This document shows, piece after piece, positions 1 to 47,583 of a stretch of DNA of 64,000 nt (its first letter is position 1; each line of letters begins with the position of its first letter). Origin of the DNA: Bacteroidota bacterium. GTDB taxonomy: Bacteria; Bacteroidota; Ignavibacteria; OLB7. The translations under genes and the position numbers were made by a program. The stretch covers positions 96,443 to 160,442 of the forward strand of contig JAFDZV010000035.1 of NCBI GenBank assembly GCA_018266795.1, given 5' to 3'. A model generated the notes under the pieces. It was given only the letters and a program-made list of their open reading frames with translations, did no database searches and was not told the DNA's origin.

Positions 1-30
1 CAACTAACAACTAACAACTAACAACCAACG
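1..30. repeat. Heptamer repeat, right arm, cut by window edge
   Basis: Four CAACTAA/CAACCAA heptamers run up to the aroKB start region. They match the right arm of the heptamer hairpins elsewhere in the window (for example 49285-49324). The left arm would lie outside the window. Confidence 0.7.
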
Positions 31-36
31 CCCATC

Positions 37-1662
37 ATGATCATCTGGCTGCAAGGCCCATCCGGAGCGGGAAAGACGACGATCGGTCGCGAGTTGGCCG
101 GTCTGCGCGGCGTGCCGTTCGTTGATCTCGATGAGGAGATCGAGCACCAGGAGGGGCGAAGCGTTGCCGATATCTTCTGGAGCGATGGCGAGGCGGCGTT
201 CCGGCGGCTGGAGTGGAATGCGTTGCTGGCGTTGATGGAGGGGGAGCGCTCTCCGAAGGTTGTGGCGCTGGGCGGCGGCGCGGTTGTCGATCACGATGTG
301 CGAAGCATGATGCGCGGCTCCGGTCTGCGCGTGTTCGTTGATGTGGAGCCGGACGTTGCGATGGCGCGGCTGGAGCGCGACGTGCCGCGGCCGTTGCTCT
401 ACGACGACGATCCGCCCGCGAAGTGGCGCCGGCTCTACAATGCCAGGCGTCGTTACTACGAGGAGACCGACCTGACGGTCCGTTCGGACCGGGCGCCTGC
501 GGAGGTGGCGCGCGCGATCGCGGACGAGATCGATCGGGCCGCCGATCCGCTCTGGACATGGCCCGCAGATATCGGCGGCGAGCCGAGCGTCGTCGCCGGC
601 TTCGGCGCGCTCTACGCACTCGCGCAGAGGATGCGGACGCTGACGCACGGGCATCGCGTCTGCCTGGTGACGGACCGGCTGGTGGAGCGCTACTATGCGG
701 ACTATCTTTTTCCGGAGCGTGAGCGCGAGGGGATGATCACGCTTGCTGTGGATGCCTCGGAGGAGACGAAGACGCTCGCCACCATCGAGGAGCTGGCCGC
801 GGGGATGGTTGCGGGGGGCTTTACGCGCGAGGGAGTGATCGTGGCCGTTGGCGGCGGAGTGGTGACGGACATGGCCGGATTTCTCGGAGCGATCTTCATG
901 CGCGGCGTGCGCACGATCTACGTGCCGACAACGCTGCTGGCGCAGGTGGATGCGGCGGTCGGCGGAAAGACGGCGGTGAACGCGGCCGGCGTTCGCAATC
1001 TGATCGGAGCGTTCCGGCAGCCGGATCATGTGCTCGTGGCATCGCAGTTCCTTCGCTCGCTTACCGCGCGCGAGCTGCGCTCCGGCTTCGTTGAAGCGGT
1101 GAAGATGGGGATCATCAATTCGCAGCCCCTGGCCGCCGCGGTTGACGCCGCGCTCCCGGCGATTCTGGAGGGGGAGCTCCCGCAGAACATCGATGAGGTG
1201 ATCCGCCTGAGCCTTCGCGCGAAGCTGGATGTGGTGGAGCAGGACGCGCGCGATTCGTCGCTCCGGCTCTCGCTCAACTTCGGCCACACCTTCGGGCATG
1301 CGCTGGAGGCGGTGGAGCCCGGTGTGTACGCGCACGGCGAGGCGGTTGCGTTCGGGATGATTGCTGCCGCGGCGATGGCCTGCGAACTCGGCACCATCTC
1401 CAATGAGCGCCGTGACTGGATCGCACAGCGTTCGCTGCCGTTCACCGTTCACGAACGCGACACGCATAACATGAACGCGCTGCTCCGCGCGATGGAATCG
1501 GACAAGAAGCGCGGAGGGAGCGGATACCGTTTCGTACTTCCCACGGAATCCACCGGCTTTGTGCTGCACGATACCGATGATCGCGAACTGGTTGTGCGTG
1601 CGATGGAGGCGGCGTTCCGTGAAATCGAAGCCAGACATCGTCCGGCCGGCATCAATGATTGA
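37..1662 (+). CDS. aroKB: Bifunctional shikimate kinase / 3-dehydroquinate synthase
   Basis: This 541-residue fusion covers two steps of the cytoplasmic shikimate pathway. Residues 1 to about 165 are shikimate kinase: a P-loop GPSGAGKTT at 7-15, DLDEEIE near 30-36 and a GGG turn at 79-81. From about residue 178 the protein is dehydroquinate synthase. That half has the NAD-binding [15 protein letters not shown] stretch, the substrate-side [16 protein letters not shown] stretch, and likely zinc ligands in [15 protein letters not shown] and HGEAVAFGM. Both halves look complete, so this is a real fusion rather than a read-through. The ATG at 37 puts the P-loop at its usual position. aroQ follows 14 bases after the stop and then aroC, so the three probably form an operon. 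Confidence 0.95.
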
Positions 1663-1676
1663 ATCATACGAGAGCC

Positions 1677-2126
1677 ATGAAGATCGTCGTCATCAACGGA
1701 CCCAATCTCAATCTTCTCGGCCGGCGCGAACCGCAGGTCTACGGCACCGATACGCTTGCGGATATCGAGCGCCGCGTGCGCGAGGCAACAGCGGAGCTCG
1801 GCGTGGAGTTGAGCTTTGCGCAGTCCAACATCGAAGGGGAGATCATCACCATGCTGCACGAGGCGCGCTACGAGGCCGGCGCCGATGCGGTTGTGATCAA
1901 TCCGGGGGCGTACACGCACTACTCGATCGCGATCCGCGATGCGATCGCGGCGATCGAAATCCCGGTGATCGAAGTGCACCTCTCCAACATCCACGCCCGC
2001 GAGCCCTTCCGCCATACCTCCGTTGTTGCGGCGGTCTGCAGGGGACGCATCGAGGGGTTGGGATGGCGCGGCTATGCAGCCGCCGTGCGGGTGCTGGCGT
2101 CGATGCACGACGAGTTGAACCGATAA
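1677..2126 (+). CDS. aroQ: 3-dehydroquinate dehydratase, type II
   Basis: This 149-residue protein is of usual length for type II dehydroquinase, which converts 3-dehydroquinate to 3-dehydroshikimate. It shows the family start [20 protein letters not shown], with the catalytic Tyr in QVYG. It also shows [16 protein letters not shown] and the active-site [19 protein letters not shown] six codons upstream is possible, but the ATG at 1677 gives the standard [10 protein letters not shown] start. It lies between aroKB and aroC, consistent with a small aro operon. Confidence 0.95.
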
Positions 2127-2141
2127 CAGCGAGGTGCATGC

Positions 2142-3236
2142 GTGGCGAATACATTCGGCTCGATATTCCGTCTGACAACGTTCGGCGAGTCGCACGGCGC
2201 GGCGCTGGGGGCCGTGATCGATGGATGCCCGGCGGGAGTTCCGTTCGATCTCGAGCTGCTCCGCCGCGATCTCGCCCGACGGCGCCCCGGGCAGGCGCTT
2301 ACCACGCCGCGCAACGAGGCGGACGAGCCGGAGGTGCTGAGCGGAGTGTTCGAGGGGCGTACCACGGGGGCGCCGATCGCCGTGCTTGTGCGGAACACCG
2401 ATCAACGCTCGAAGGATTACTCCGATCTCAAGGATCTCTACCGCCCTTCGCATGCGGACTATACCTACGCGGCGAAGTACGGCGTGCGCGATCATCGCGG
2501 CGGCGGACGCTCCTCGGCGCGTGAGACACTGGCCCGCGTGATCGGCGGCGCGGTTGCGCGCATGCTCCTTGCGGCCGGAACGGCCGTAGATGTGCGCGCG
2601 GCCGTAACGGCGATGGGCCCGCACTCCGCGGAGCGCCCGCTTGCGGAGATGGCCGCCGATGCCGTCTATTCATCCGCCGTTCGGTGCGCCGATCCCATTG
2701 CGGAGCCTGCGATGATCGCCTGGCTCGATGAACTGCGTGCGGCGGGGAATTCCACCGGCGGCATCGTCTCCGTTCGCGTGGAGAATGTGCCGGCCGGGCT
2801 GGGCGAACCCATCTACGACAAGCTGAACGCGCGGCTTGCAGGGGCGATGATGTCCATCAACGGCGCGATGGGCTTCGAGGTCGGGGCCGGATTCGGTGTG
2901 GCTTCGGCGCGCGGGTCCGAGAACAACGATCAGTTCATCCGCGGAGCCGACGGGCTCGAGACCAGCTCCAACAACTCCGGCGGCATTCAGGGAGGGATCT
3001 CGAACGGCATGCCGGTGGAGTTTCGCGTGGCGTTCAAGCCCCCATCATCCATCGCCCTCGCGCAGCAGCATGGAGCTGCAACAGGGGAGACGGTGGAACA
3101 CGCGGTCACCGGGCGGCACGACCCCTCCATCGTGGTGCGTGCCGTTCCCGTTGTCGAGGCGATGACGCTGCTGGTGCTCGCCGATATGTGGCTGATGGCG
3201 CAGGCAGGGAAGTCGTTGGTAGTCAGTAGTCAGTAG
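2142..3236 (+). CDS. aroC: Chorismate synthase
   Basis: This 364-residue enzyme converts EPSP to chorismate using reduced FMN. Visible signatures are TFGESHG (residues 13-19), DHRGGGRSSARETL, and SNNSGGIQGGISNGMP near the C-terminal third. It starts at a GTG 15 bases after aroQ; the following ANTFGSIFRLTTFGESHG is the standard N-terminus. The last residues, LVVSSQ and the stop, are encoded by the first units of a GTAGTCA heptamer repeat, so the native C-terminus has been replaced or extended by repeat DNA. The catalytic core is intact. Confidence 0.95.
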   Translation: MANTFGSIFRLTTFGESHGAALGAVIDGCPAGVPFDLELLRRDLARRRPGQALTTPRNEADEPEVLSGVFEGRTTGAPIAVLVRNTDQRSKDYSDLKDLYRPSHADYTYAAKYGVRDHRGGGRSSARETLARVIGGAVARMLLAAGTAVDVRAAVTAMGPHSAERPLAEMAADAVYSSAVRCADPIAEPAMIAWLDELRAAGNSTGGIVSVRVENVPAGLGEPIYDKLNARLAGAMMSINGAMGFEVGAGFGVASARGSENNDQFIRGADGLETSSNNSGGIQGGISNGMPVEFRVAFKPPSSIALAQQHGAATGETVEHAVTGRHDPSIVVRAVPVVEAMTLLVLADMWLMAQAGKSLVVSSQ

Positions 3237-3299
3237 TCGGTAGTCAGTAGTCAGTAGTCGGTAGTCAGTTGTCAGTAGTCGGTAGTCAGTTGTCAGTAG
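3214..3299. repeat. GTAGTCA heptamer repeat array overlapping the aroC stop
   Basis: About twelve tandem heptamers (GTAGTCA, GTAGTCG, GTTGTCA) in perfect period-7 register. This is the longest and cleanest copy of the family in the window. It begins inside aroC and has no obvious complementary right arm, unlike most other copies. Confidence 0.9.
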
Positions 3300-3474
3300 G
3301 CCGAGCGGTGCTTTGTTCTTGGCACTTCGTTTTTCGCTCGACGTTGTGGTTGTACATGATGGGAAGGCGGGAACAACAGAACACAACGCGGCCCGGAATA
3401 TTTCGCGATGCCCGGTCTGATGCGCGACATCGCAAGACGCTCTTCGCCCTTTCAGGACTCAATACCTATCGGCG

Positions 3475-4464
3475 TCACGTTCCCGCTGCCAGCAACTCCA
3501 GGATCTGTACGGCATTGGTGGCCGCGCCCTTGCGTACGTTGTCAGCCACCACCCACATGTTGATCGTGTTCGGTTGCGATGCATCCTTCCGGATGCGCCC
3601 CACGAACACCTCGTCGTGATCGCCGGCGTCCAGAACCGTTGGATAGTGGTCCTTCGCGGGATCGTCCCACACCACAATGCCCGGGGCCCGCTCCAGAATG
3701 CGTCGCGCCTTTGCCGGCGTAACCGGCGTCTGGAATTCGGCGTTCACCGATTCTGCATGCGCGGCAACGGTGGGGATGCGGACACAGGTCATGGTGCAGG
3801 CAAGCCTCGGGATGCCGAGGATCTTCCGCGTCTCGTTGATCATCTTCATCTCCTCCTCGCTATAGTCATCCCCTTCGTTGAACGAGTGGAAGATGGTGTT
3901 GAATGCCGCGGTGTGCGGGAACTTCCGGCGCTCCGGCGTGCGCCCCTTCAGTTCCGCCGTAAGCTGATCGATGCCGGCCTGCCCCGCGCCGGAGATCGCC
4001 TGGTAGGTGGAGACCACAACGCGCTTCAATCCGAAGGCATCGTGCAGCGGCTTCAGTGCAACCACGAGCTGAATCGTGGAGCAGTTCGGATTGGCGATGA
4101 TCCCCCTGTGCCTGAATGCCGCCTCGGGATTCACCTCCGGGACAACGAGCGGCACGGTACGATCCATGCGCCACGCGCTGGAGTTGTCGATTACCACGGC
4201 GCCGGCCGCGGCTGCTATCGGCGCATACTCGCGGCTCACCGATGCGCCTGCCGAGAAGAGCGCGAAGTCCACCCCCTTGAACGATGTCTTCCGCAATTCC
4301 TGCACGGTGTAGTTGTGCCCGCGAAAGCGGACGCACTTCCCTGCGGAGCTCCTGGAGGCGAGCGGCACAAGGTTCGCAGGCGCTATGTCATGCTCCTCGA
4401 GCACGCGCAGCATCGTTCGTCCAACAAGGCCGGTGGCGCCGACAACGGCGATCGAATAGCTCAT
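3475..4464 (-). CDS. asd: Aspartate-semialdehyde dehydrogenase
   Basis: This 329-residue enzyme reduces aspartyl phosphate to the semialdehyde, feeding lysine/diaminopimelate, threonine and methionine synthesis. It has the N-terminal NADP fold VVGATGLVGRTMLRVLEE, the catalytic Cys128 in ANPNCSTIQ, TYQAISGAGQAG, and the histidine region VRIPTVAAHAESVN. Length is normal. It lies downstream of the DUF4397 lipoprotein on the same strand. A hairpin at 4513-4538 and heptamer repeats separate the two, so it is probably transcribed alone. Confidence 0.95.
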   Translation of the reverse strand: MSYSIAVVGATGLVGRTMLRVLEEHDIAPANLVPLASRSSAGKCVRFRGHNYTVQELRKTSFKGVDFALFSAGASVSREYAPIAAAAGAVVIDNSSAWRMDRTVPLVVPEVNPEAAFRHRGIIANPNCSTIQLVVALKPLHDAFGLKRVVVSTYQAISGAGQAGIDQLTAELKGRTPERRKFPHTAAFNTIFHSFNEGDDYSEEEMKMINETRKILGIPRLACTMTCVRIPTVAAHAESVNAEFQTPVTPAKARRILERAPGIVVWDDPAKDHYPTVLDAGDHDEVFVGRIRKDASQPNTINMWVVADNVRKGAATNAVQILELLAAGT

Positions 4465-4512
4465 CGATGATTGCTGTAGTTGAGTTGAGGGAGGGAACCG
4501 CGCGAGAAGGAA

Positions 4513-4538
4513 GTGCCGCGACGGAAGCGCCGCGGCAC
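4513..4538 (-). terminator. Hairpin between the DUF4397 gene and asd
   Basis: Perfect 8-bp stem GTGCCGCG/CGCGGCAC with a 10-nt loop. On the minus strand it is followed by TTCCTTCTC. It may terminate the DUF4397 transcript or be a leader hairpin of asd, whose ATG lies about 50 nt downstream. Confidence 0.45.
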
Positions 4539-4570
4539 CTATGATGCACGCACACGGTTGGAGCGTGTTA

Positions 4571-4677
4571 CTGGTTAGTAGTCAGTAGCCATTGGTCAGT
4601 TGGAGAGCCGGGATCCGCTACCTGCCGTTTCATTCGATGCTTTCCTGCAACTGACCACGAACTACTAACAACGAACG
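4571..4677. repeat. Heptamer inverted repeat
   Basis: The left arm (GGTTAGTAGTCAGTAGCC... to 4601) and the right arm (CAACTGACCACGAACTACTAAC..., 4648-4677) are imperfectly complementary across about 45 nt. The right arm ends 6 nt from the DUF4397 stop codon. Confidence 0.75.
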
Positions 4678-4683
4678 TCCTCT

Positions 4684-6240
4684 CTACGGATTCAGATCCT
4701 CGGCAAGCGCATGCAGATATCCAACCTTGTCGCCATGCGATCCGCGTGAGAGGAAGACCGTGTAGGATTTGTTCGCCTCAAGCGGCGTCTTGTCCAGGAC
4801 CTGTGTGAGGAGAACGTTCCCCTGTTCGTCGATCACGTCCGCGGAGACGGCCCCGGCCGGAGCCGCGAACGAGTTCGTTCCCTCCGGGATCTCGCCATAG
4901 CCCATTGCGATGGGAGTGGCTGCGCCGTTGATCCGCAGGCGAAGCTTCTTCCCGTTGAACGTGCTTCCGAAGCCGCCGTTGAAGAAGCGTATCTGTGCCA
5001 TGCCCGATGGAGGCGCCGAGGTGTTGTCCAGCAGCAGAGCGCTGTGTGCTGCGAGCGAATCGTACGGACCGTACGCCACGATCGTATAACGCTTGTTGAT
5101 GGTCGGCGTAAATGCCGCACGCGGCACCAGCACATCCTGCTTGCGGTAATCGATCGATACCGTTCCGGTGGTACAACTGTGGCCGGTGCGATAGGGTTGG
5201 TGATACTCCACGCGGAACGGAAAGTCCTGGCGCAGCAGCAGGCTTATGTAGAAATAGCTCCGCGCTACCGGCTGCCCGTCCAGACCGAGCGAGGCAATCC
5301 CCTCCACGGTCTGCGGCTGGCCGATCAGATTGCGACGGAAGTTGTCGTTCTCGCAGAACTCCTGCGACGGGTCGTAGAACGTCACGTCGAGGAGCGAGTC
5401 GCCGCTCGCGGTGATGTTCGCGAATCGTGCGGCGGCGAAGTTGATGTTGATGGGGGAGGATCCGTGCAGCGAATCGGCGCCGAGATAGCTCTCCTGGAAC
5501 GCCGAGAAATTGAGAAATGCCTCATCGCCATGCGGTGCGCCGTTGCCGGTGAGCACGAGTGTGAATGTGGAGTTCGGCGGCAGCACGATGTACGGCGGCG
5601 TGATCGCCCGAATCTCCGCCCCTGATGTGTGGTCGTAGATCCACAGGCCGGTTCCCTTCGGGAAGTACTCCTTGCTCGGAATGTACTGGCTTGCCGAACC
5701 GTATGCGAGGGCGGTCACCACGAACGGCGACGTGTTGTCGTCCTGCCGCATGTCCAGTGGCGGAGCGTCCGGGCTCAGGTTCACCACGCGATACTTCATG
5801 GACTTGCCGGGGATCGTTGGGACGGCGATGGTGTCCGTGGTTACCAGCACGTGATAGCCGCGCGCCGCGTTGCCGTGGAAGTATGCCGTGTAGTACCCCC
5901 CCTTGGCGAAGATCAGCGTATCGGTGGCGAGCACGGTGCTGCCGGAGAGAAAGCGGATACGATGGGCGTTGCTGTCCGCCGGGTAGTAGCGCGCATTGTT
6001 GTTGGTTTCGCTGAAGTCCAGATATCCCTGCGGCGATGGAAAGAACAGATCGTCGTCCACCTTCACATCCACCTTCGGACTTCCCGCCGCTGCGTTGATC
6101 ACACGGAGAAATGCGCCGCTCTTGTGCACAACCGTGTCGGGCGGCCGGTGCGGTACGAACGGATCATCGGGCGAGCAGGAGGAAAGGAACGCCGCGCCGG
6201 CAATCGCAATGAATGCGGCCGTGAGCGTGCGAAGAACCAT
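4684..6240 (-). CDS. DUF4397-type lipoprotein
   Basis: Predicted secreted lipoprotein. From the ATG at 6240 it begins MVLRTLTAAFIAIAGAAFLSSC, a short basic start, hydrophobic segment and an LSSC lipobox. An in-frame ATG at 6306 would add 22 residues. The mature part carries several beta-rich segments of DUF4397 type: FLRVINAAAGSPKVDV, YRVVNLSPDAPPLDM, ARFANITASGDSLLDV and IRFFNGGFGSTFNGKK. The family is common in Bacteroidota and its function is unknown. No enzyme motif is visible. It is flanked on both sides by heptamer repeats. Confidence 0.75.
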   Translation of the reverse strand: MVLRTLTAAFIAIAGAAFLSSCSPDDPFVPHRPPDTVVHKSGAFLRVINAAAGSPKVDVKVDDDLFFPSPQGYLDFSETNNNARYYPADSNAHRIRFLSGSTVLATDTLIFAKGGYYTAYFHGNAARGYHVLVTTDTIAVPTIPGKSMKYRVVNLSPDAPPLDMRQDDNTSPFVVTALAYGSASQYIPSKEYFPKGTGLWIYDHTSGAEIRAITPPYIVLPPNSTFTLVLTGNGAPHGDEAFLNFSAFQESYLGADSLHGSSPININFAAARFANITASGDSLLDVTFYDPSQEFCENDNFRRNLIGQPQTVEGIASLGLDGQPVARSYFYISLLLRQDFPFRVEYHQPYRTGHSCTTGTVSIDYRKQDVLVPRAAFTPTINKRYTIVAYGPYDSLAAHSALLLDNTSAPPSGMAQIRFFNGGFGSTFNGKKLRLRINGAATPIAMGYGEIPEGTNSFAAPAGAVSADVIDEQGNVLLTQVLDKTPLEANKSYTVFLSRGSHGDKVGYLHALAEDLNP

Positions 6241-37918: not shown

Positions 37919-38067
37919 CCATGGCCACGTCATCGTAGTGCGATACATTGCGTCCGCGATTCACGACAGCCCACAGTTCCGGCCGGGCGGGCTCCGCGGC
38001 CGGGACGATACAGACCTTGCGATGTGAGCACCCTGGAACGTCAAGCCCTCATCACGTATTCCGGATC

Positions 38068-40482
38068 ATGATGAAGCATCTGGCCATCGGCATCCTCGCA
38101 TTCACCTCCATCCTCCCGCTCGCTCATCCCGCTCCTCTTCACGCGCAGAAGGTGCCGGCACCACTCTCGGCGGACAGCCTCCTCTCGCGCAGCCTCGACA
38201 TGTTCGATCTCCCGCCGTTCGAGTGGGACGGGGCGCCGGAGCCGCTGCGTCCGCGTCTTGGCATCTATCTGTCCGCAATTCCGGCGGACAGTCTTGCTCT
38301 CATTCCAGGACTGGCGGGAACCACGAACCCGCTCCGTATCTGGCACGTGATGCCGCACTGGTCAGCCGATGAGGCCGGTGTGCTGATCAACGACGTTCTG
38401 CTTTCGATAGACGGAAGGCCGATCGGTGATTCGCTCTATCAGGGTGAGGAGTACGTGAACGTTCTCGCGCGGGACCATGCGCCGGGGGATACCATCCGGA
38501 TGACCATCGTGCGCGGCGGCGTTCGCCGCGACATCCCCGTGCCGCTTGCCGCACCGGTGCGCGTGCCAATGCCGGTGCCTGCCGCACCTGCGGCGCTCGG
38601 ACCCATCCGTACCGGGACGTGGCTTCAGAAAACCATTGCAACCAATGCCCTTGCGGACCGCGCACGCAGCATTCAGAAGCAGATGCGCATCGTTGCCGAT
38701 CAGGACTTCTGCACCGTGCCGTTCGCCGGCCGGCCGAATCCCTGGAGGCTCGGCGCGGTAACGTATCTGCATCACAACCCGACGCGCGTCGGGGCGTACT
38801 CCCGCTGGCTTGTCGACGACTGCTGGCGGCATGTCCGCGCAGGCGTGGGCCTTTCCGGCGCCGTGGAAGCGGCCGCCCGCCATCTGGACGTGCAGCTCGA
38901 CGCTCACGAGAATCTCTACGATCGCCCGCACGTCCCCTCGGAACTCGATGGATTCATGCGCACGATTCAGATCCGGCTGGACAAGGCGTATGCTCCCGTC
39001 AGGAAGGATCTCGGGGAGATGACGAAGTCGCTGGCCCATCTGCTCGACATGGACAACAACTGGGAGGAGGAGCTGGACAGCACCAGCGATCCTGTTGCCC
39101 GGCGAGCGCTGCGCGTGGCCCACGAGAAGCGTCTCGCCGCGCTCTTCACCCGTGCGGACTCCGTGGATCTCCTCTCGCTCACGCGCGGCGGCATGATGGC
39201 TGCGTCGCTGGCGGACTCCGCATGGCTCGTCACGTTCGCGCGCGCACTGGAGACGGCGCCGGGAGGGAAGCCGGCCAAGCCGGTGAAGATGGATGGAGTG
39301 GAGGGGGAGATCGTGATGGCGTGGACGACTCCGCTGGGGCGTTATGTGATCGGGGGAAAGGGCGCCAATCATTATACCGGCAACTTCCGGTGCATCATCG
39401 ATCTCGGTGGAGATGATGTCTACGATCTCTCGCCGGCGGAGCCCGGGACCGTTCGCTTCATTGCCGATCTCGCCGGCAACGATGTCTACCGCACGCCTGC
39501 GGCGGGGATCGCATCCGGTATCGGCTGCGTGGATGTGCTGGCCGATCTCGGCGGCGACGACACGTATCGTTCGGCCTACTACTCCGAGGGAGCCGGCCTG
39601 CTGGGTGTGGGCCTGCTGGCGGACTTCGGCGGCAACGATACCTATATCTCGCACTGGTGCTCGCAGGGGGCCGCGTTTCTGGGAATCGGTCTGCTGTGCG
39701 ACTGGGATGGTTCCGACTCCTACAGTGCCGATGTCTACTCGCAGGGCTTCGGCTACGTGCACGGCTTCGGCGCGATCCTGGAACGTGCAGGCAATGATTC
39801 CTACCGTGCGGGGTGGAAGTATCCGGACTCCCGGATCCCGAACCGCGCTCACCTGGCGATGTCGCAGGGCTTCGGCTTCGGCATGCGGCCGTGGAGTATC
39901 GGCGTCGGCGCCGACGGCGGAATCGGCGTTCTGAGCGATCTCGCCGGCGACGATCTCTACGCATCCGATCTCTTCAGCCAGGGGGGAAGCTACTGGTACT
40001 CTCTCGGCATCCTTCACGACGAGCAGGGGGCGGATCGGTACACCGCAGGACAGTATTCGCAGGGGAGCGGCATCCACCTCTCGTTTGCCGCGTTGCTGGA
40101 CAATGCCGGCGACGACATGTACGATGCCTACGCCGGGCTGGAACAGGGGAACGCGCACGACTGGTCATCAGGATGCCTGGAGGATGCCGGTGGGAACGAT
40201 ACCTATCGCGGTTCCGGAAGCAGCCAGGGCTCCGCGCTCACCGTCTCGTTCGCATGGCTTCTGGATGCATCGGGCGACGATCAATACTATGCCCGCCTCG
40301 CTGATACGGCGCTCAGCCAGGGAGGCGGTAATACCATCCGGGCGCGCCGCGCCGGCTCGCTTGGGATGCTTATCGATCTCGGCGGCGGCGACGACTACTA
40401 TGTGGAGCCGAGGGAACGCCAGGGGACTCTGTTGATCAAGGGGAACGGCCTGATCTTCGATGACGGACCTGCACCGAAGTGA
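38068..40482 (+). CDS. Secreted PDZ protein with tandem DxxGxDxY repeats
   Basis: An 804-residue exported protein. The signal peptide starts MMKHLAIGILAFTSILPLAH. A PDZ-like domain covers about residues 60-165 (PHWSADEAGVLINDVLLSIDG). A helical, charged middle follows. From about 440 there are ten or so repeats built on DLGGDDVYD, DLAGNDVYR, DLGGDDTYR and DFGGNDTYI, each with a YSQG/SEGAG turn, likely a calcium-dependent beta solenoid. No protease triad is evident. Function unknown; possibly a surface protein that scaffolds through the PDZ domain. No T9SS tail was seen. Confidence 0.8.
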   Translation: MMKHLAIGILAFTSILPLAHPAPLHAQKVPAPLSADSLLSRSLDMFDLPPFEWDGAPEPLRPRLGIYLSAIPADSLALIPGLAGTTNPLRIWHVMPHWSADEAGVLINDVLLSIDGRPIGDSLYQGEEYVNVLARDHAPGDTIRMTIVRGGVRRDIPVPLAAPVRVPMPVPAAPAALGPIRTGTWLQKTIATNALADRARSIQKQMRIVADQDFCTVPFAGRPNPWRLGAVTYLHHNPTRVGAYSRWLVDDCWRHVRAGVGLSGAVEAAARHLDVQLDAHENLYDRPHVPSELDGFMRTIQIRLDKAYAPVRKDLGEMTKSLAHLLDMDNNWEEELDSTSDPVARRALRVAHEKRLAALFTRADSVDLLSLTRGGMMAASLADSAWLVTFARALETAPGGKPAKPVKMDGVEGEIVMAWTTPLGRYVIGGKGANHYTGNFRCIIDLGGDDVYDLSPAEPGTVRFIADLAGNDVYRTPAAGIASGIGCVDVLADLGGDDTYRSAYYSEGAGLLGVGLLADFGGNDTYISHWCSQGAAFLGIGLLCDWDGSDSYSADVYSQGFGYVHGFGAILERAGNDSYRAGWKYPDSRIPNRAHLAMSQGFGFGMRPWSIGVGADGGIGVLSDLAGDDLYASDLFSQGGSYWYSLGILHDEQGADRYTAGQYSQGSGIHLSFAALLDNAGDDMYDAYAGLEQGNAHDWSSGCLEDAGGNDTYRGSGSSQGSALTVSFAWLLDASGDDQYYARLADTALSQGGGNTIRARRAGSLGMLIDLGGGDDYYVEPRERQGTLLIKGNGLIFDDGPAPK

Positions 40483-40831: not shown

Positions 40832-43800
40832 ATGAAACACTCACGTACGACATTGGCATTCGTGCTGACAGCGCTTACGGCGGCAGCCACGGCGCAGGCA
40901 CAGATGCCGAGAACGATCGCTTACCAGGGCTATCTTGCAACACCCACAGGTGCCCCTGTTGCCGACAACAACTACACCTTCATCGTCAAGATCTACGACG
41001 CTGAGACGAGCGGCAACGTGCTGTATACGGAAACGCAATCCGTGGGTGTGGTGAAGGGCATCTACAACCTCATCATCGGCTCCAGCACGCCGGGCGGCAT
41101 TCCGGCAAGCGTCCGGTTCGACCGCCAGTACTGGCTCGCCGTCAACGTCAACGGCAGCGATCTTCTGCCGCGCACGCAGCTTACCACATCTCCGTACTCG
41201 TTCAGCTCGTTGATCGCAGACAGCGCCCGCGCGGTTGCTCCTGGTGCGATCGGACCCGAGCATCTTCGCGACGGCTCCATCTCGCCCGCGAAGTTGAACG
41301 CCGTCGGCATTCCGGCCGAGCAGGTGCTCGTCTCCACCGGAACGGGCGTGGCATGGCAGCCGTTCTCCTCGCACACCGTTACCAGCCTCAACACGCTGAA
41401 GGGTGATGTCGAGATCCTCGGCGGCACGAACATCCAGGTCACCAAGAACACCTCGACCAACAAGATTACCGTCACGTCGCTCAATGTTGGAACGATCAAC
41501 ACCATTCAGAGCACGGACGATGCCATCGTGGTGATCGATCCGAACGGACCGACAACTTCGCTCGCCATTCGCGGCACCGGCATCAAGCGCGAGTACCTCG
41601 CCGATTCCGCCGTCAACACGGCGAAGCTGGCCGATAACTCCGTCACAACCGCGAAGCTGGCGGACAACTCCGTCACCAGCGCCAAGATCGTCGATGGAAC
41701 GATCATGGATGTGGATGTGAACCCGAGTGCCGCCATCGCCTACAGCAAGCTCAACCTCGCCAACAGCATCAAGACGGCGGACATCACCGACGGCACGATC
41801 ATCAACGCCGATGTGAGCCCGACCGCAGCGATCGCCTACGGCAAGCTGGCCCTCACCAACAGCATCGTTGCGGGTGATCTCACCAGCGGCGCGGTGACCC
41901 TCCCGAAGATTGCCGGCACCGGCGCGACGGCCAATCAGGGAATCATGTTCGACGGCACGAACGTTGTCTGGGGAAATCCGCTTCCGGGCGGCTCCGCGGG
42001 CGGCGATCTTACCGGCAGCTACCCGAACCCGACGATCGCGGCGAACGCGGTTACCTCCGCGAAGATTCTCGACGGCACCATCACCAACGCCGATGTGAGC
42101 CCGACGGCGGCCATCGCCTACTCGAAGCTGGCGCTTACCGGCAGCATCGTGAATGCCGACGTGAGCGCAACGGCAGCAATCGCCTACTCGAAGCTGGCAC
42201 TTGCCAACAGCATCGTCAGCGGCGACATCGTTGACGGTACGATCGTGAATGCCGACGTCAGCCCGACGGCGGCCATCGCCTACGGCAAGCTGAACCTCAC
42301 CGGCAGCATCGTGAACGCCGATGTGAGCCCGACGGCGGCGATCGCCTACAGCAAGCTGAACCTGACCGGCGGCATCGTGAATGCCGACGTGAACGCAGCG
42401 GCGGCCATCGCCTACTCGAAGCTGAATCTTGCCGGCAGCATCGTGAACTCCGACGTCAGCCCGACGGCAGCCATCGCCTACAGCAAGCTGAATCTGACCA
42501 ACAGCCTGGTCACGGCCGATCATGTCGATGGTTCGATCACGCTCCCGAAGCTCAGCGCAACCGGCGCTTCCTCGGGCCAGGGAATCACCTACAACGGCAC
42601 GAGCATCGTCTGGGGCAGCCCTTCACCGGGCGGCGCGGCCGGTGGTGACCTTACCGGTACCTATCCGAACCCGACGATCGCGGCGAACGCGGTTACCTCC
42701 GCGAAGATTCTGGACGGCACGATCGTGAACGCCGATGTGAGCCCGACCGCAGCGATCGCCTATTCGAAGCTGGCGCTCAGCAACAGCATCGTGAGCGGCG
42801 ACATCGTTGACGGTACGATCGTGAATGCCGACGTCAGCCCGACGGCGGCGATCGCCTACAGCAAGCTGAACCTGACCAACAGCCTGGTCACGGCCGATCA
42901 TGTCGACGGTTCGATCACGCTCCCGAAGCTCAGCGCAACGGGTGCTTCCTCGGGCCAGGCGATCACCTACAACGGCACAAGCATCGTCTGGGGCAGCCCT
43001 GCACCGGGCGGCGCGGCTGGTGGTGACCTGACCGGCACGTATCCGAACCCGACGATCGCGGCGAACGCGGTTACCTCCGCGAAGATTCTAGACGGCACGA
43101 TCGTCGATGCGGACGTCAGCCCGACGGCTGCGATCGCGTACAGCAAGCTGAACCTGGTGAACAGCATTCAGAATGCCGATATCGTTCCCAACGCGATCAC
43201 GACGTCGAAGGTTGCCAACGGCACGGTGACGACGTCGAAGCTTGCCGACAGTGCGGTCTCCGGCCTGAAGCTTCTCACGAACGCGGTCAACACGGCTCAT
43301 ATCGCCGACGGTGCGGTGACGTTGCCGAAGATCTCCAGCACCGGCGCATCCGCCAACCAGGCGATCGTGTTCGACGGCACGAACGTTGTCTGGGGAGCTG
43401 CTGTTCCCGGCGGCGCGGCTGGTGGTGACCTGACCGGCACATATCCGAATCCGACGGTCGCCAACAGTGCGATCACGAGCGCGAAGATTCTGGACGGCAC
43501 GATCGTCGATGCGGACGTGAGCCCAACGGCGGCGATTGCGTACAGCAAGCTGAACTTGGTGAACAGCATTCAGAATGCCGACATCGTTCCCAACGCGATC
43601 ACGACGTCGAAGGTTGCCAACGGTACGGTGACGACGTCGAAGCTTGCCGACAGTGCGGTCTCCGGTCTGAAGCTGCTGACCGCCGCGGTCAACACGGCCC
43701 ACATCGCCGACGGTGCGGTGACGGACGCAAAGGTTGCCAACGGCATCAGCTACTCGAAGCTGAGCGGTGCGCCGACCTCGCTGCCGCCGAGCGGCGCGGC

Positions 43801-44533
43801 TGGTGGTGATCTGACCGGCACGTATCCGAACCCGGTGATCGCAGCCAATGCGGTTACCTCGGCGAAGATTGCCGACGGCACGATCACCAATGCGGACATC
43901 AGCGCAGCCGCTGCGATCGCCTACTCGAAGCTGAACCTCTCCGGCTCCGTTCAGGGTAGCGACATCGCGGCCGGTACGTTCACGACCACGAACGCGCATC
44001 ATGCCCTGGGCAACAACGACAACACAGCCCGCGAGCTTCGCTTCCTGGAGCCGAGCGGTTCCGGTGTGAACTACACGGCGTTCAAGGCGCAGGCCCAGGC
44101 CGGCGACATCACCTACACGCTTCCGAACACCGCTCCGGGAGCCGTCAACCAGGTGCTGCAGGTGCAGGCGGTTGCTGGCAACAACGCAACGCTCTCGTGG
44201 GGCGCCATCGGCGGCGGTTCGATCCTCTTCTCGCGTACCGGAGTTACTGCCAACGCCGGCAATACCTCCTACACCGTGACGGCTGCCGACGATATCATCG
44301 GCGTCAACATGTCGGCTGGAACGAACTTCACCGTGAACATGCCGCCGGCAACAACGTCGGGCAAGATCGTCATCGTCAAGATCGAGCGCTACAACAACGC
44401 GCTGCTTCCGGTCCTGACCGTTCAGCCGAACGGAACCGATAAGATCGACGGTGCCAACAACGACGCGTTCGGCAATCAGAACGGCGTTCGCGACTACTAC
44501 TCCGACGGTGCCGGCAACTGGTACTCGTGGTAA
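40832..44533 (+). CDS. Giant repetitive tail-fibre-like secreted protein
   Basis: A 1233-residue exported protein with signal peptide KHSRTTLAFVLTALTAAATA. Residues about 25-150 form a globular head (YQGYLATPTGAPVADNNYTF) typical of fibre/adhesin N-termini. The bulk is some 30 repeats of about 20 residues, such as SIVNADVSPTAAIAYSKLNL, alternating with AAGGDLTGTYPNPTIAANAV blocks. Several DNA blocks are almost identical, for example 43082-43290 against 43490-43700. The C-terminal ~100 residues form a cap (DDIIGVNMSAGTNFTVNMPP). No T9SS tail. Likely an extended trimeric fibre or adhesin. Confidence 0.82.
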   Translation: MKHSRTTLAFVLTALTAAATAQAQMPRTIAYQGYLATPTGAPVADNNYTFIVKIYDAETSGNVLYTETQSVGVVKGIYNLIIGSSTPGGIPASVRFDRQYWLAVNVNGSDLLPRTQLTTSPYSFSSLIADSARAVAPGAIGPEHLRDGSISPAKLNAVGIPAEQVLVSTGTGVAWQPFSSHTVTSLNTLKGDVEILGGTNIQVTKNTSTNKITVTSLNVGTINTIQSTDDAIVVIDPNGPTTSLAIRGTGIKREYLADSAVNTAKLADNSVTTAKLADNSVTSAKIVDGTIMDVDVNPSAAIAYSKLNLANSIKTADITDGTIINADVSPTAAIAYGKLALTNSIVAGDLTSGAVTLPKIAGTGATANQGIMFDGTNVVWGNPLPGGSAGGDLTGSYPNPTIAANAVTSAKILDGTITNADVSPTAAIAYSKLALTGSIVNADVSATAAIAYSKLALANSIVSGDIVDGTIVNADVSPTAAIAYGKLNLTGSIVNADVSPTAAIAYSKLNLTGGIVNADVNAAAAIAYSKLNLAGSIVNSDVSPTAAIAYSKLNLTNSLVTADHVDGSITLPKLSATGASSGQGITYNGTSIVWGSPSPGGAAGGDLTGTYPNPTIAANAVTSAKILDGTIVNADVSPTAAIAYSKLALSNSIVSGDIVDGTIVNADVSPTAAIAYSKLNLTNSLVTADHVDGSITLPKLSATGASSGQAITYNGTSIVWGSPAPGGAAGGDLTGTYPNPTIAANAVTSAKILDGTIVDADVSPTAAIAYSKLNLVNSIQNADIVPNAITTSKVANGTVTTSKLADSAVSGLKLLTNAVNTAHIADGAVTLPKISSTGASANQAIVFDGTNVVWGAAVPGGAAGGDLTGTYPNPTVANSAITSAKILDGTIVDADVSPTAAIAYSKLNLVNSIQNADIVPNAITTSKVANGTVTTSKLADSAVSGLKLLTAAVNTAHIADGAVTDAKVANGISYSKLSGAPTSLPPSGAAGGDLTGTYPNPVIAANAVTSAKIADGTITNADISAAAAIAYSKLNLSGSVQGSDIAAGTFTTTNAHHALGNNDNTARELRFLEPSGSGVNYTAFKAQAQAGDITYTLPNTAPGAVNQVLQVQAVAGNNATLSWGAIGGGSILFSRTGVTANAGNTSYTVTAADDIIGVNMSAGTNFTVNMPPATTSGKIVIVKIERYNNALLPVLTVQPNGTDKIDGANNDAFGNQNGVRDYYSDGAGNWYSW

Positions 44534-44673: not shown

Positions 44674-45015
44674 ATGCAACCGCAAGCAGATCCTGTTCCA
44701 AGCCCATATACCTGCGATACATTCCTTCCACATGTCGGCAATACGTTCGTGCTCACGTCGCGCAGCGGCTCGGCCGTGGATCTCGAGCTGATCACTGCCG
44801 AGCCGGTGAAGTTGAACCCGATCGACGGCAGAGCCGTGGGGCGGTCCGGCTTCGTGCGGCGCGATCCCTTCCGTCTGCTGTTCCGCGGGCACGGCGAGAT
44901 GCTGCCGCAGGGGCTGTACGGCTTCCGGCATGAGACCATGGGTGACTTCCAGATGAGCGTTGTTCCGGTGGGACCCGGTGAGAGCGGGTGGTTGTACGAG
45001 GCGGTGTTCAACTAG
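44674..45015 (+). CDS. DUF6916-like small protein
   Basis: A 113-residue protein. The C-terminal ~80 residues (FVLTSRSGSAVDLELITAEPVKL ... FRLLFRGHGEMLPQGLYGFRHETMGDFQMSVVPVG ... YEAVFN) match the DUF6916 type. This type is often encoded beside Microcystis-dependent (tail-collar) proteins. No export signal is evident. The ATG at 44674 is the most plausible start. It converges on the GNAT and tail-collar genes. Function unknown. Confidence 0.7.
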   Translation: MQPQADPVPSPYTCDTFLPHVGNTFVLTSRSGSAVDLELITAEPVKLNPIDGRAVGRSGFVRRDPFRLLFRGHGEMLPQGLYGFRHETMGDFQMSVVPVGPGESGWLYEAVFN

Positions 45016-45085
45016 GGATAGGGGCCGGCAGGCCCTGGCACCCCGGATGCCGCTGCGCTGCGTGCGGCATCCGAAGATGGAGCGG

Positions 45086-45607
45086 TTACTGCGGTACAGT
45101 GCCGCTGCGATGCGGTTCGTGTTGATACTCCATCAGCCAGTGCGATGAGAGATCCTCGACAACTGCAAACTGTTTGCGCTGATAAAGATTGAACGCCCGG
45201 TTTGCCTTCTCCACATGAAGGCGGATCGGGCGGTTGGTTTCCAGACCGCGATGCACGTATCGGTCCATGATGTAGCTGCAGATGCCGCGGTTCTGGTGTG
45301 CCGGCATGATCATCAGATCCCCCAGGCGTACCTCGTCTTCGAACTCGATGATGATCAGGCGGCCAACCGGTTCATCGTTCCTGTGGATGATGGAGATGTC
45401 GGCGAATGGATAGTTGGAGCTGTAGTGGAGCGTCTGCGCGTCGAACTGATACTGTATCAGCGTCTCGATTTCATCACTGCTCAGATTTGTCTGTTCGAAC
45501 GGCATCTGCGAGCGGAGCGTAATGCTGTACAGCGAGCGAACGAAGGCTTCATCCGTCTCCGTTGCGGGTCGGAATGCATACTCTCCAAGCGGATCCAGAA
45601 GGAACAT
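45086..45607 (-). CDS. GNAT-family N-acetyltransferase
   Basis: A 173-residue acetyltransferase. Acetyl-CoA motif A is visible in VRLGDLMIMPAHQNRGICSYIMDRYVHRG, and the C-terminal VEKANRAFNLYQRKQFAVVED is the family's neighbour-strand motif. It is transcribed after the three tail-collar genes on the same strand, 117 bases beyond the last, so it may modify that protein or a shared partner. The substrate is unknown. Confidence 0.9.
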   Translation of the reverse strand: MFLLDPLGEYAFRPATETDEAFVRSLYSITLRSQMPFEQTNLSSDEIETLIQYQFDAQTLHYSSNYPFADISIIHRNDEPVGRLIIIEFEDEVRLGDLMIMPAHQNRGICSYIMDRYVHRGLETNRPIRLHVEKANRAFNLYQRKQFAVVEDLSSHWLMEYQHEPHRSGTVPQ

Positions 45608-45724
45608 GATGTGCTGTTGCGTCGGGGTTGGCGTTGATGCCGGGCTCGCACACAGGAGCCGGTTGAACGATTCGGCCGGCGCGAATCGATGATCGGCGCC
45701 GGCCGGACGTTGCTGCGGAAGCTG

Positions 45725-46249
45725 TCAGTTGCGCGAGGGGAAAATCCCTTCCAGTGCGATGCAGAAGTTGATCACCAGGTACGGCTGCATGTTGTTGTGC
45801 GGCTGGTTGCCGCCTGCAAGGCCGATGGATTGGGGATTCAACGCGGAGCCGTCGGAGGTTGGACGGTAGAATGCCACCTGATTGGAGCTGCTGGCGCCGA
45901 GGAAGTTGCCGTTCGGCTGGCCGAGCGCGCCGCTGACGTTGGTCACACTGAACAGGTGGTTGTGCATCGGCATCTCGCTGTTGATCAGCGTGTGCGTTTC
46001 CTCACCGGACGCCTCTCCCATGGTCCGGTTCGTCAGGCCGGGCCCCTGTCCCTGATGGATGGGTACGCGGCCGCGCAGGTCGGGAAGCCCGAATGTCACG
46101 CGGCCGTCACCGCCGAACGTTGTTCCGAGGAGAGAGAAGAGCGCGGTGTTCTGCGCGATCGAGAGGAGCTGGCCATCGCACGTTGCGTAGCCGATCGGTG
46201 CGAAGTTGAAGCCTGCCTGGATGATCTGGCCGATGAAGGGTTCTGCCAT
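45725..46249 (-). CDS. Tail-collar protein, Microcystis-dependent type, copy 3
   Basis: A 174-residue protein of the phage tail-collar (PF07484-type) family: MAEPFIGQIIQAGFNFAPIG, FGGDGRVTFGLPDLRGRVPIHQGQG, MPMHNHLFSVTNVSGALGQP and the end NNMQPYLVINFCIALEGIFP. These are thought to be fibre-tip or adhesin-like proteins. Third in a head-to-tail series of near-identical copies. It has the most divergent spacing segment (EASGEETHTL). Confidence 0.9.
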   Translation of the reverse strand: MAEPFIGQIIQAGFNFAPIGYATCDGQLLSIAQNTALFSLLGTTFGGDGRVTFGLPDLRGRVPIHQGQGPGLTNRTMGEASGEETHTLINSEMPMHNHLFSVTNVSGALGQPNGNFLGASSSNQVAFYRPTSDGSALNPQSIGLAGGNQPHNNMQPYLVINFCIALEGIFPSRN

Positions 46250-46362
46250 TGATTGAGCCTCCTGCAATAGTCTTGAAGGGGAAGGGGGCCTCGAAATATC
46301 GGGGGGATATTGAAGCAGTGGCCGGACATCGCGTCCGGCCACTGCTCTCTCGTGCGAATCGG

Positions 46363-46887
46363 TTAGTTACGCGAGGGGAAGATCCCTTCCAACGCGATAC
46401 AGAAGTTGATCACCAGATACGGCTGCATGTTGTTGTGCGGCTGGTTGCCGCCGGCGAGGCCGATAGCCTGGGGATTCAGCGTGGAGCCGTCCGAGGTTGG
46501 ACGGTAGATCGCCACCTGATTGGAGCTGCTGGCGCCGAGGAAGTTGCCGTTCGGCTGGCCGAGCGCGCCGCTGACGTTGGTTACATTGAACAGGTGGTTG
46601 TGCATCGGCATCTCGCTGTTGATCAGCGTAACCGTCTCCGAACCGGATACCTCACCCATGGTACGATTGGTCAGGCCCGGTCCCTGTCCCTGATGGATGG
46701 GTACGCGCCCACGCAGATCGGGAAGCCCGAATGTCACCCGGCCGTCACCGCCGAACGTTGTTCCGAGGAGCGAGAAGAGTGCGGTGTTCTGGGCGATTGA
46801 AAGAAGCTGGCCATCGCACGTCGCGTAACCGCGCGGTGCGAAGTTGAAACCGGCCATGATGATCTGGCCGACAAATGGTTCTGCCAT
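46363..46887 (-). CDS. Tail-collar protein, copy 2
   Basis: A 174-residue paralog, nearly identical to its neighbours. It differs at only a few positions: MAEPFVGQIIMAGFNFAPRG at the start, and GEVSGSETVTLINS in the middle. It lies 171 bases downstream of copy 1. Confidence 0.9.
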   Translation of the reverse strand: MAEPFVGQIIMAGFNFAPRGYATCDGQLLSIAQNTALFSLLGTTFGGDGRVTFGLPDLRGRVPIHQGQGPGLTNRTMGEVSGSETVTLINSEMPMHNHLFNVTNVSGALGQPNGNFLGASSSNQVAIYRPTSDGSTLNPQAIGLAGGNQPHNNMQPYLVINFCIALEGIFPSRN

Positions 46888-47058
46888 GTGTTGATTCTCC
46901 TGATGTTGGAGTTCCTAACCTGGAGCGCTGCAGGGCCTGCTGGCGCTGAGATGCGCGCGGTTATGATTGGAACTGTTATCGGAATGATCCGGTTTGTTTC
47001 GATGCCGCGGAGCGTACCGCCGAAGGATCGACGTCCGCTCCGCGCTCCGCCGTGTCGA

Positions 47059-47583
47059 TCAGTTGCGCGAGGGGAAGATCCCTTCCAACGCGATACAGAA
47101 GTTGATCACCAGATACGGCTGCATGTTGTTGTGCGGCTGGTTGCCGCCTGCAAGGCCGACGGCCTGGGGATTCAGTGTGGAGCCGTCCGAGGTTGGACGG
47201 TAGAGTGCCACCTGATTGGAGCTGCTGGCAGCGAGGAAGTTGCCGTTCGGCTGGCCGAGTGCGCCGCTGACGTTGGTTACGTTGAACAGGTGGTTGTGCA
47301 TCGGCATCTCGCTCGAGATCAGCGTTACCGTCTCCGAGCCGGACATCTCTCCCATGGTCCGGTTCGTCAGGCCGGGCCCCTGTCCCTGATGGATGGGTAC
47401 ACGCCCACGCAGATCGGGAAGCCCGAACGTCACGCGGCCGTCACCGCCGAACTGTGTGCCGAGGAGCGAGAAGAGCGCGGTGTTCTGTGCGATCGAAAGA
47501 AGCTGCCCGTCGCACGTCGCATAGCCACGCGGCGCAAAGTTGAAGCCTGCCTGAATGATCTGGCCGATAAACGGTTCTGCCAT
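47059..47583 (-). CDS. Tail-collar protein, copy 1
   Basis: A 174-residue protein, first of the triplet, with a good SD (AAGGAGAAG) before the ATG at 47583. It has FGGDGRVTFGLPDLRGRVPIHQGQG and GEMSGSETVTLISS. Apart from a few substitutions it matches copies 2 and 3, pointing to recent duplication or gene conversion. Confidence 0.9.
   Translation of the reverse strand: MAEPFIGQIIQAGFNFAPRGYATCDGQLLSIAQNTALFSLLGTQFGGDGRVTFGLPDLRGRVPIHQGQGPGLTNRTMGEMSGSETVTLISSEMPMHNHLFNVTNVSGALGQPNGNFLAASSSNQVALYRPTSDGSTLNPQAVGLAGGNQPHNNMQPYLVINFCIALEGIFPSRN

Follow-up and report, generated by a model that had tools for sequence, protein, structure and literature searches.

A gene module of tail-collar proteins, a GNAT enzyme, and DUF6916 beside giant genes suggests a widespread bacterial surface-assembly system

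Organization of the locus

The DNA analyzed here, called the window, is a stretch of 64,000 nucleotides from a Bacteroidota bacterium (G000:C28:96443-160442). It meets our definition of the module, in which three collar genes, a GNAT gene, and a DUF6916 gene are adjacent, and a giant fibre-like gene lies beside them:

40832..44533, plus strand: giant secreted fibre-like protein, 1233 aa (ATG at 40832, ORF open from 40769)
44674..45015, plus strand: DUF6916 protein, 113 aa (PF21880, E 8.6e-22), convergent with the GNAT gene
45086..45607, minus strand: GNAT-family acetyltransferase, 173 aa (PF00583, E 8.1e-7)
45725..46249, minus strand: collar protein C, 174 aa, leaderless, no lysine (PF07484, E 5.2e-26)
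46363..46887, minus strand: collar protein B, 174 aa, leaderless, no lysine (PF07484, E 4.5e-28)
47059..47583, minus strand: collar protein A, 174 aa, leaderless, no lysine (PF07484, E 1.2e-26)

The fibre and DUF6916 genes follow each other in tandem on the plus strand, and the GNAT gene is downstream of the collar genes in transcription order. The housekeeping genes def and alaS (the latter identified from sequence) adjoin the module upstream of the collars. The Pfam matches and the strand layout confirmed the description in the earlier note, which had reported three 174-residue tail-collar genes with few differences, a GNAT gene after them, a convergent DUF6916 gene, and, outside its own interval of 44674-47583, the giant fibre gene next door. 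The three collars score 92.8, 97.4, and 90.8 bits against PF07484, above the curated cut-off of 24, and each starts with MAEPF. Any two of them differ at 8-12 residues and by 31-36 synonymous codon changes, from which we infer that they are maintained copies and not a fresh duplication.

The fibre protein carries, as judged by eye, a Sec-type signal sequence at the N-terminus and contains tail-fibre-like repeats (DUF5907; PF19264, E 3.2e-13 in Pfam), and it matched tail-fibre families of PHROG with values down to 1e-45. Relatives of this gene adjoin the module in L013, L014, and L016. The fibre gene is directly preceded by an ORF of 844 aa (37948-40482), in which a PDZ domain comes before numerous DLGGDDxY-type repeats. 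Further collar genes lie elsewhere in the genome of the window: a distant set in which two collars are fused and one is separate (L018, G000:C29:130825-132118), and a lone divergent collar next to a very large ORF (L017, G000:C39:30978-31148). GNAT and DUF6916 are absent at both places.

Co-occurrence of the module across bacteria

DUF6916 was found in five of 61 relatives, each time with a GNAT relative and collar genes no more than about 3 kb away; G001, G022, and G058 among them also have the fibre gene at the locus. In a sample of 296 Bacteroidota genomes, nine encode DUF6916, and eight of the nine loci contain GNAT and collars. A DUF6916-seeded search of Acidobacteriota detected the gene in 16 of 199 genomes, 15 of which have GNAT and/or a collar triplet nearby within wider flanks (exception, G412). 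Four rhizobial plasmids carry the module as well. Those of Sinorhizobium meliloti, Rhizobium bangladeshense, and Phyllobacterium have three genes annotated as 'tail fiber', an N-acetyltransferase gene, a convergent hypothetical gene (DUF6916), and an adjoining giant gene with putative Ig content, while Ensifer adhaerens has the same set, unannotated.

A scan seeded with type-2 collars, from which the best 80 loci were kept, covered ten phyla. Exactly three collar ORFs are present in 76 of these 80 loci, and both GNAT and DUF6916 lie within 8 kb in 61 of them, representing nine phyla; because of the type-2 seeding and the restriction to the best 80, these fractions are not prevalence estimates. 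Among the 61 relatives, the co-occurrence of DUF6916, GNAT, and collars is far above chance. The neighborhoods that the earlier note had mentioned from other bacteria, proposing a survey, are real and far more widespread and ordered than it had claimed, and its condition for refutation, an absence of joint occurrence outside this genome, does not apply. The conserved gene module is well supported, with its mechanism being inferred. GNAT and DUF6916 are not obligatory, since leaderless triplets without them occur in Paenibacillus, Hydrogenedentes, and some Hymenobacter.

Variants of the arrangement were also observed. A single GNAT gene is flanked on either side by DUF6916 genes in L085, L087, L127, L139, L144, and L145, and in Mesorhizobium (L082, L090, L095, and L103) an ORF of ~410-450 aa is inserted between the third collar and GNAT, with weak FG-GAP similarity in L082.

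No description of the module was found in the searched open-access literature, which leaves out most subscription papers and preprints. DUF6916 is not mentioned anywhere in that literature of 5.39 million papers, which agrees with the earlier view that the function is not established; nothing in it combines 'tail collar' with 'twin-arginine', and one granule secretome paper mentions tail sheath but not collar.

Three collar types and the question of a heterotrimer

The collars fall into three types with the motifs MAEPFLSEI/INQNQALF, MAQPYVGEI/ISENETLF, and MADPFVAEI/LSQNTALF. Motif assignment in the 80 loci gave 78, 79, and 77 collars of types 1, 2, and 3, usually one of each per locus. In a maximum-likelihood tree of 120 collars, the type clades are supported at 98/83, 97/95, and 100/94, and each spans many phyla; in our reading of the tree, the three types are ancient. 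The rhizobial and G010 type-3 rows are placed outside the 100/94 clade. The first-pass motif labels misplace a few tree rows, so the label counts in the tree output exceed the minimum.

The canonical form of the module, with one collar per ancient type, is not met by the window. A class-specific clade apart from the three types (100/98) unites its collars with their counterparts from G001, G022, G058, and G249, all of them lineage-specific copies. G010 belongs to the same class but has the three standard types, and the window is therefore a divergent, homotypic variant. Judged by these sequences, three distinct ancient types are the norm, and three near-identical collars are unusual.

In one relative (L071), the three collars are contained in one ORF of 547 aa, and in two Paenibacillus a type 2-type 1 fusion is accompanied by a separate type 3. 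Given these fusions, the homology of the collars to T4 gp12 structures, and the constant number of three, a heterotrimer is the simplest reading. A collar trimer is likely, and the fusions support a three-part, probably heterotrimeric complex, which is not proven and for which there is no structure. A heterotrimer in the window is doubtful, since its collars are outside the three types. The AF2 model of the collar monomer is poor (pLDDT 55); it is compatible with an intertwined trimer but gives no evidence for one.

The collar domain in phage T4 is part of a trimeric fibre, and collar-bearing phage fibres such as T4 gp12 bind cell-surface receptors. The collar region of the module proteins is detectably homologous to this short tail fibre (PF07484; 1ocy, 1pdi, and 5iv5). 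In contrast to gp12, the module collars are free-standing proteins of 165-180 aa without a shaft, usually comprising three different chains, and the module includes GNAT and DUF6916 and lacks phage genes. Phage-like trimeric fibres used by a bacterium are described for Bdellovibrio, the mosaic adhesive trimer (MAT) fibres of which have a conserved N-terminal domain after the signal peptide (PMC10769870). The window fibre matches Bdello_MAT_N weakly (1.3e-8), with 34.8 bits against the NCBIfam cut-off of 60, which is not met. Unlike in the module, the tips of MAT fibres lie within one polypeptide, and 'collar' is absent as a word from that paper (PMC10769870).

Properties of the GNAT and DUF6916 proteins

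Comparison of the GNAT family profile with the PDB revealed N-terminal acetyltransferases at the head of the list of solved structures, with RimI, archaeal Ard1, and NAA50 as relatives (PDB 6wqb, 9mto, 4r3k, and 3tfy). The likeness is limited to the GNAT core, and the substrate is inferred. The window GNAT reaches only 18.5 bits against the NCBIfam rimI equivalog (cut-off 86.4). Its CoA loop reads QNRGIC where the family alignment has RGxGIG, a departure that counts against the surface-fibre reading favored below.

The earlier note proposed a search for acetylated residues; on the window collars these cannot be lysines, because none of the three contains lysine, and lysine acetylation of these collars is excluded. 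Lysine averages 0.82% across collars and is missing altogether from 65 of 284, and position 2 is occupied by A, S, G, T, or P in 219 of 244; both features fit Met removal and N-alpha-acetylation. Our best guess for the GNAT target is the collar N-terminus exposed in this way, with both the activity and the substrate being predictions.

The AF2 model of DUF6916 (pLDDT 87) is all-beta apart from one short helix. Foldseek returned nothing at E<=0.001 for this model, only weak matches to phage tail-tube, neck, and viral-protease proteins, and the best VIA-align match, to the N-terminal part of the PilZ proteins MrkH and YcgR, has a Z of 7.5, which lies in the range that the tool regards as common. 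These fold matches are middling and contradictory.

Export signals of the collars

Most collar triplets, including that of the window, have no signal peptide. The window also yielded no Tat partner, so that export is unproven here. The genome of the window encodes TatC. Signal-bearing relatives do occur. Hymenobacter triplets have Tat-type (twin-arginine) N-termini on two or three members, a Sphingobacterium triplet has one only on the first of three, in L267 (Hymenobacter) the triplet is leaderless and a fourth collar bears the Tat signal, and L158 and L159 (viral-collection contigs) have Sec-like leaders on the triplet. Together with the giant neighbors, these relatives support a surface location.

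Genome-wide searches of the two Hymenobacter genomes and one Sphingobacterium genome of L122, L128, and L141 detected neither DUF6916 nor the module-type GNAT. None of 61 Hymenobacter genomes has DUF6916 above its cut-off; collars are present in 33 of these genomes. The mutual exclusion of leaders and helpers gave a Fisher p of 0.004 (3 versus 53 loci, not phylogenetically independent). A need for GNAT and DUF6916 where no leader is present would fit these data, though only weakly, and it is no rule, since leaderless Hymenobacter and Paenibacillus sets without helpers exist. Separately, a gene for a Tat-type PhoX phosphatase adjoins the collar triplet in L126 and L143 (Paenibacillus) and L092 (Desulfosporosinus), identified by Pfam match in L126 and L092 and by similarity of the ends in L143.

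Giant proteins next to the module

An ORF of at least 1000 aa abuts the module in 49 of 56 complete loci with at least 3 kb on either side, compared with 9 of 97 control points located 5 kb away. The giant neighbor has an autotransporter barrel in S. meliloti, a T9SS sorting tail in Dyadobacter, SLH domains in Paenibacillus, IPTL-CTERM in Delftia, and, in Desulfosporosinus, an SlpA-like region that is under the cut-off of that model. The predicted anchors thus differ by lineage and are lineage-typical in these examples. In their repeats and anchors, the neighboring giants resemble giant adhesins with Ig/cadherin repeats (BapA/LapF type, CshA, and SprB-like); to our knowledge, those systems include no collar partner proteins.

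Outside Bacteroidota, proline is the last residue of 24 of the 35 long ORFs that directly precede the first collar, compared with 25 of 288 background ORFs (Fisher p 9e-15; the rows are not independent, and the background ORFs are partly spurious). The proline is often preceded by a nearby cysteine, as in GGAACPTP, GFSNCSLP, and VAPGSCGTFP. This C...P tail was seen on giant ORFs of several phyla (L077, L083, L085, L088, L096, L097, L099, L108, L142, L151, and others), and no NCBIfam or sorting-signal model covered it in the three giants tested. It may be a docking or sorting tail. The adjacency to giant genes could also reflect shared regulation only.

Discussion

We tentatively favor, at a little under even chances, a domesticated phage-derived surface-fibre module, in which the collar trimer works with a giant surface protein as its head, its cap, or its partner in assembly. 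The gene set, the three types, the fusions, the signal-bearing variants, the giant adjacency, and the anchors in the examples are observed. From these we infer that the three gp12-collar homologues would form a small trimeric head in the cytoplasm, usually with one chain of each type and in the window with three near-copies. The GNAT would most likely acetylate the N-terminus exposed by Met removal (MA/MS starts), and DUF6916 may help assembly or export, both roles being inferred. The folded complex would then exit the cytoplasm, via Tat where signals are visible, and take up one of these roles on the giant surface-anchored neighbor, here the 1233-aa fibre; that the complex touches the giant protein and serves adhesion is likewise inferred. 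A bolder version, which we regard as unlikely in full, is a pan-bacterial capping or assembly device for giant adhesins in general. In it, an obligate heterotrimer of three paralogs would be acetylated at its N-termini by a dedicated GNAT, matured by DUF6916, carried out of the cytoplasm in folded form, either through Tat or by some unknown leaderless route, and docked irrespective of the anchor.

The collar complex might instead stay in the cytoplasm or periplasm and help the giant protein to fold or to be exported, without being displayed as part of it, and with GNAT and DUF6916 regulating or assisting; for this we see only a modest chance. Most collars are leaderless; the collars remain constant while export and anchoring of the giants vary by lineage, and the C...P tail of many giants could be what such a factor binds. 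However, some collars carry a Tat or Sec-like signal themselves, so at least these leave the cytoplasm, and the homology is to a receptor-binding tail-fibre protein.

We find it improbable that the collar complex is a secreted lectin-like or receptor-binding effector against other cells or phages, with the giant merely a co-regulated neighbor. Receptor binding by phage collar fibres and the existence of collar-only and multi-triplet arrays are consistent with an effector, but the excess of giant ORFs at the module speaks against it, and no defence model was matched. An anti-phage defence system was rejected in the absence of any PADLOC match. One multi-triplet array, L157 (positions 1-5453, an IMG/VR contig labelled viral), has nine consecutive collar genes that apparently make up three triplets and fill the short contig.

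A prophage or tailocin remnant, suggested by the matches of the collars and fibre repeats to phage tail families, is very improbable and was rejected, in accordance with the earlier note, as neither GNAT nor DUF6916 has a PHROG match, a search of 50,697 phage records gave no hit for DUF6916, def and alaS adjoin, the same ordered set recurs in nine phyla, and (non-exhaustive) PHROG scans of the flanking window proteins gave tail matches only in the fibre and collars and no capsid or other head, sheath, tube, or baseplate genes. Among the collar loci of the viral collection, DUF6916 is present in none of 79 and GNAT in two, and scanning viral contigs with the DUF6916 alignment revealed no interpretable pattern. 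In L156 and L160, IMG/VR contigs labelled viral, a module-type GNAT lies directly before the collar triplet without DUF6916, which may represent host DNA or phage cargo.

The recurrence of this gene set in at least nine phyla, nearly always next to a giant cell-surface protein, suggests a widespread, apparently undescribed surface-assembly system, of which the window carries a divergent version. In many genomes the module genes bear the labels 'tail fiber protein' or 'hypothetical protein'. Should they constitute one surface system, they would be annotated as a conserved cell-surface device and no longer as phage debris, DUF6916 would gain a context, and the natural variants, such as fusions and Tat-tagged members, would offer handles on heterotrimer assembly and the export of folded complexes.
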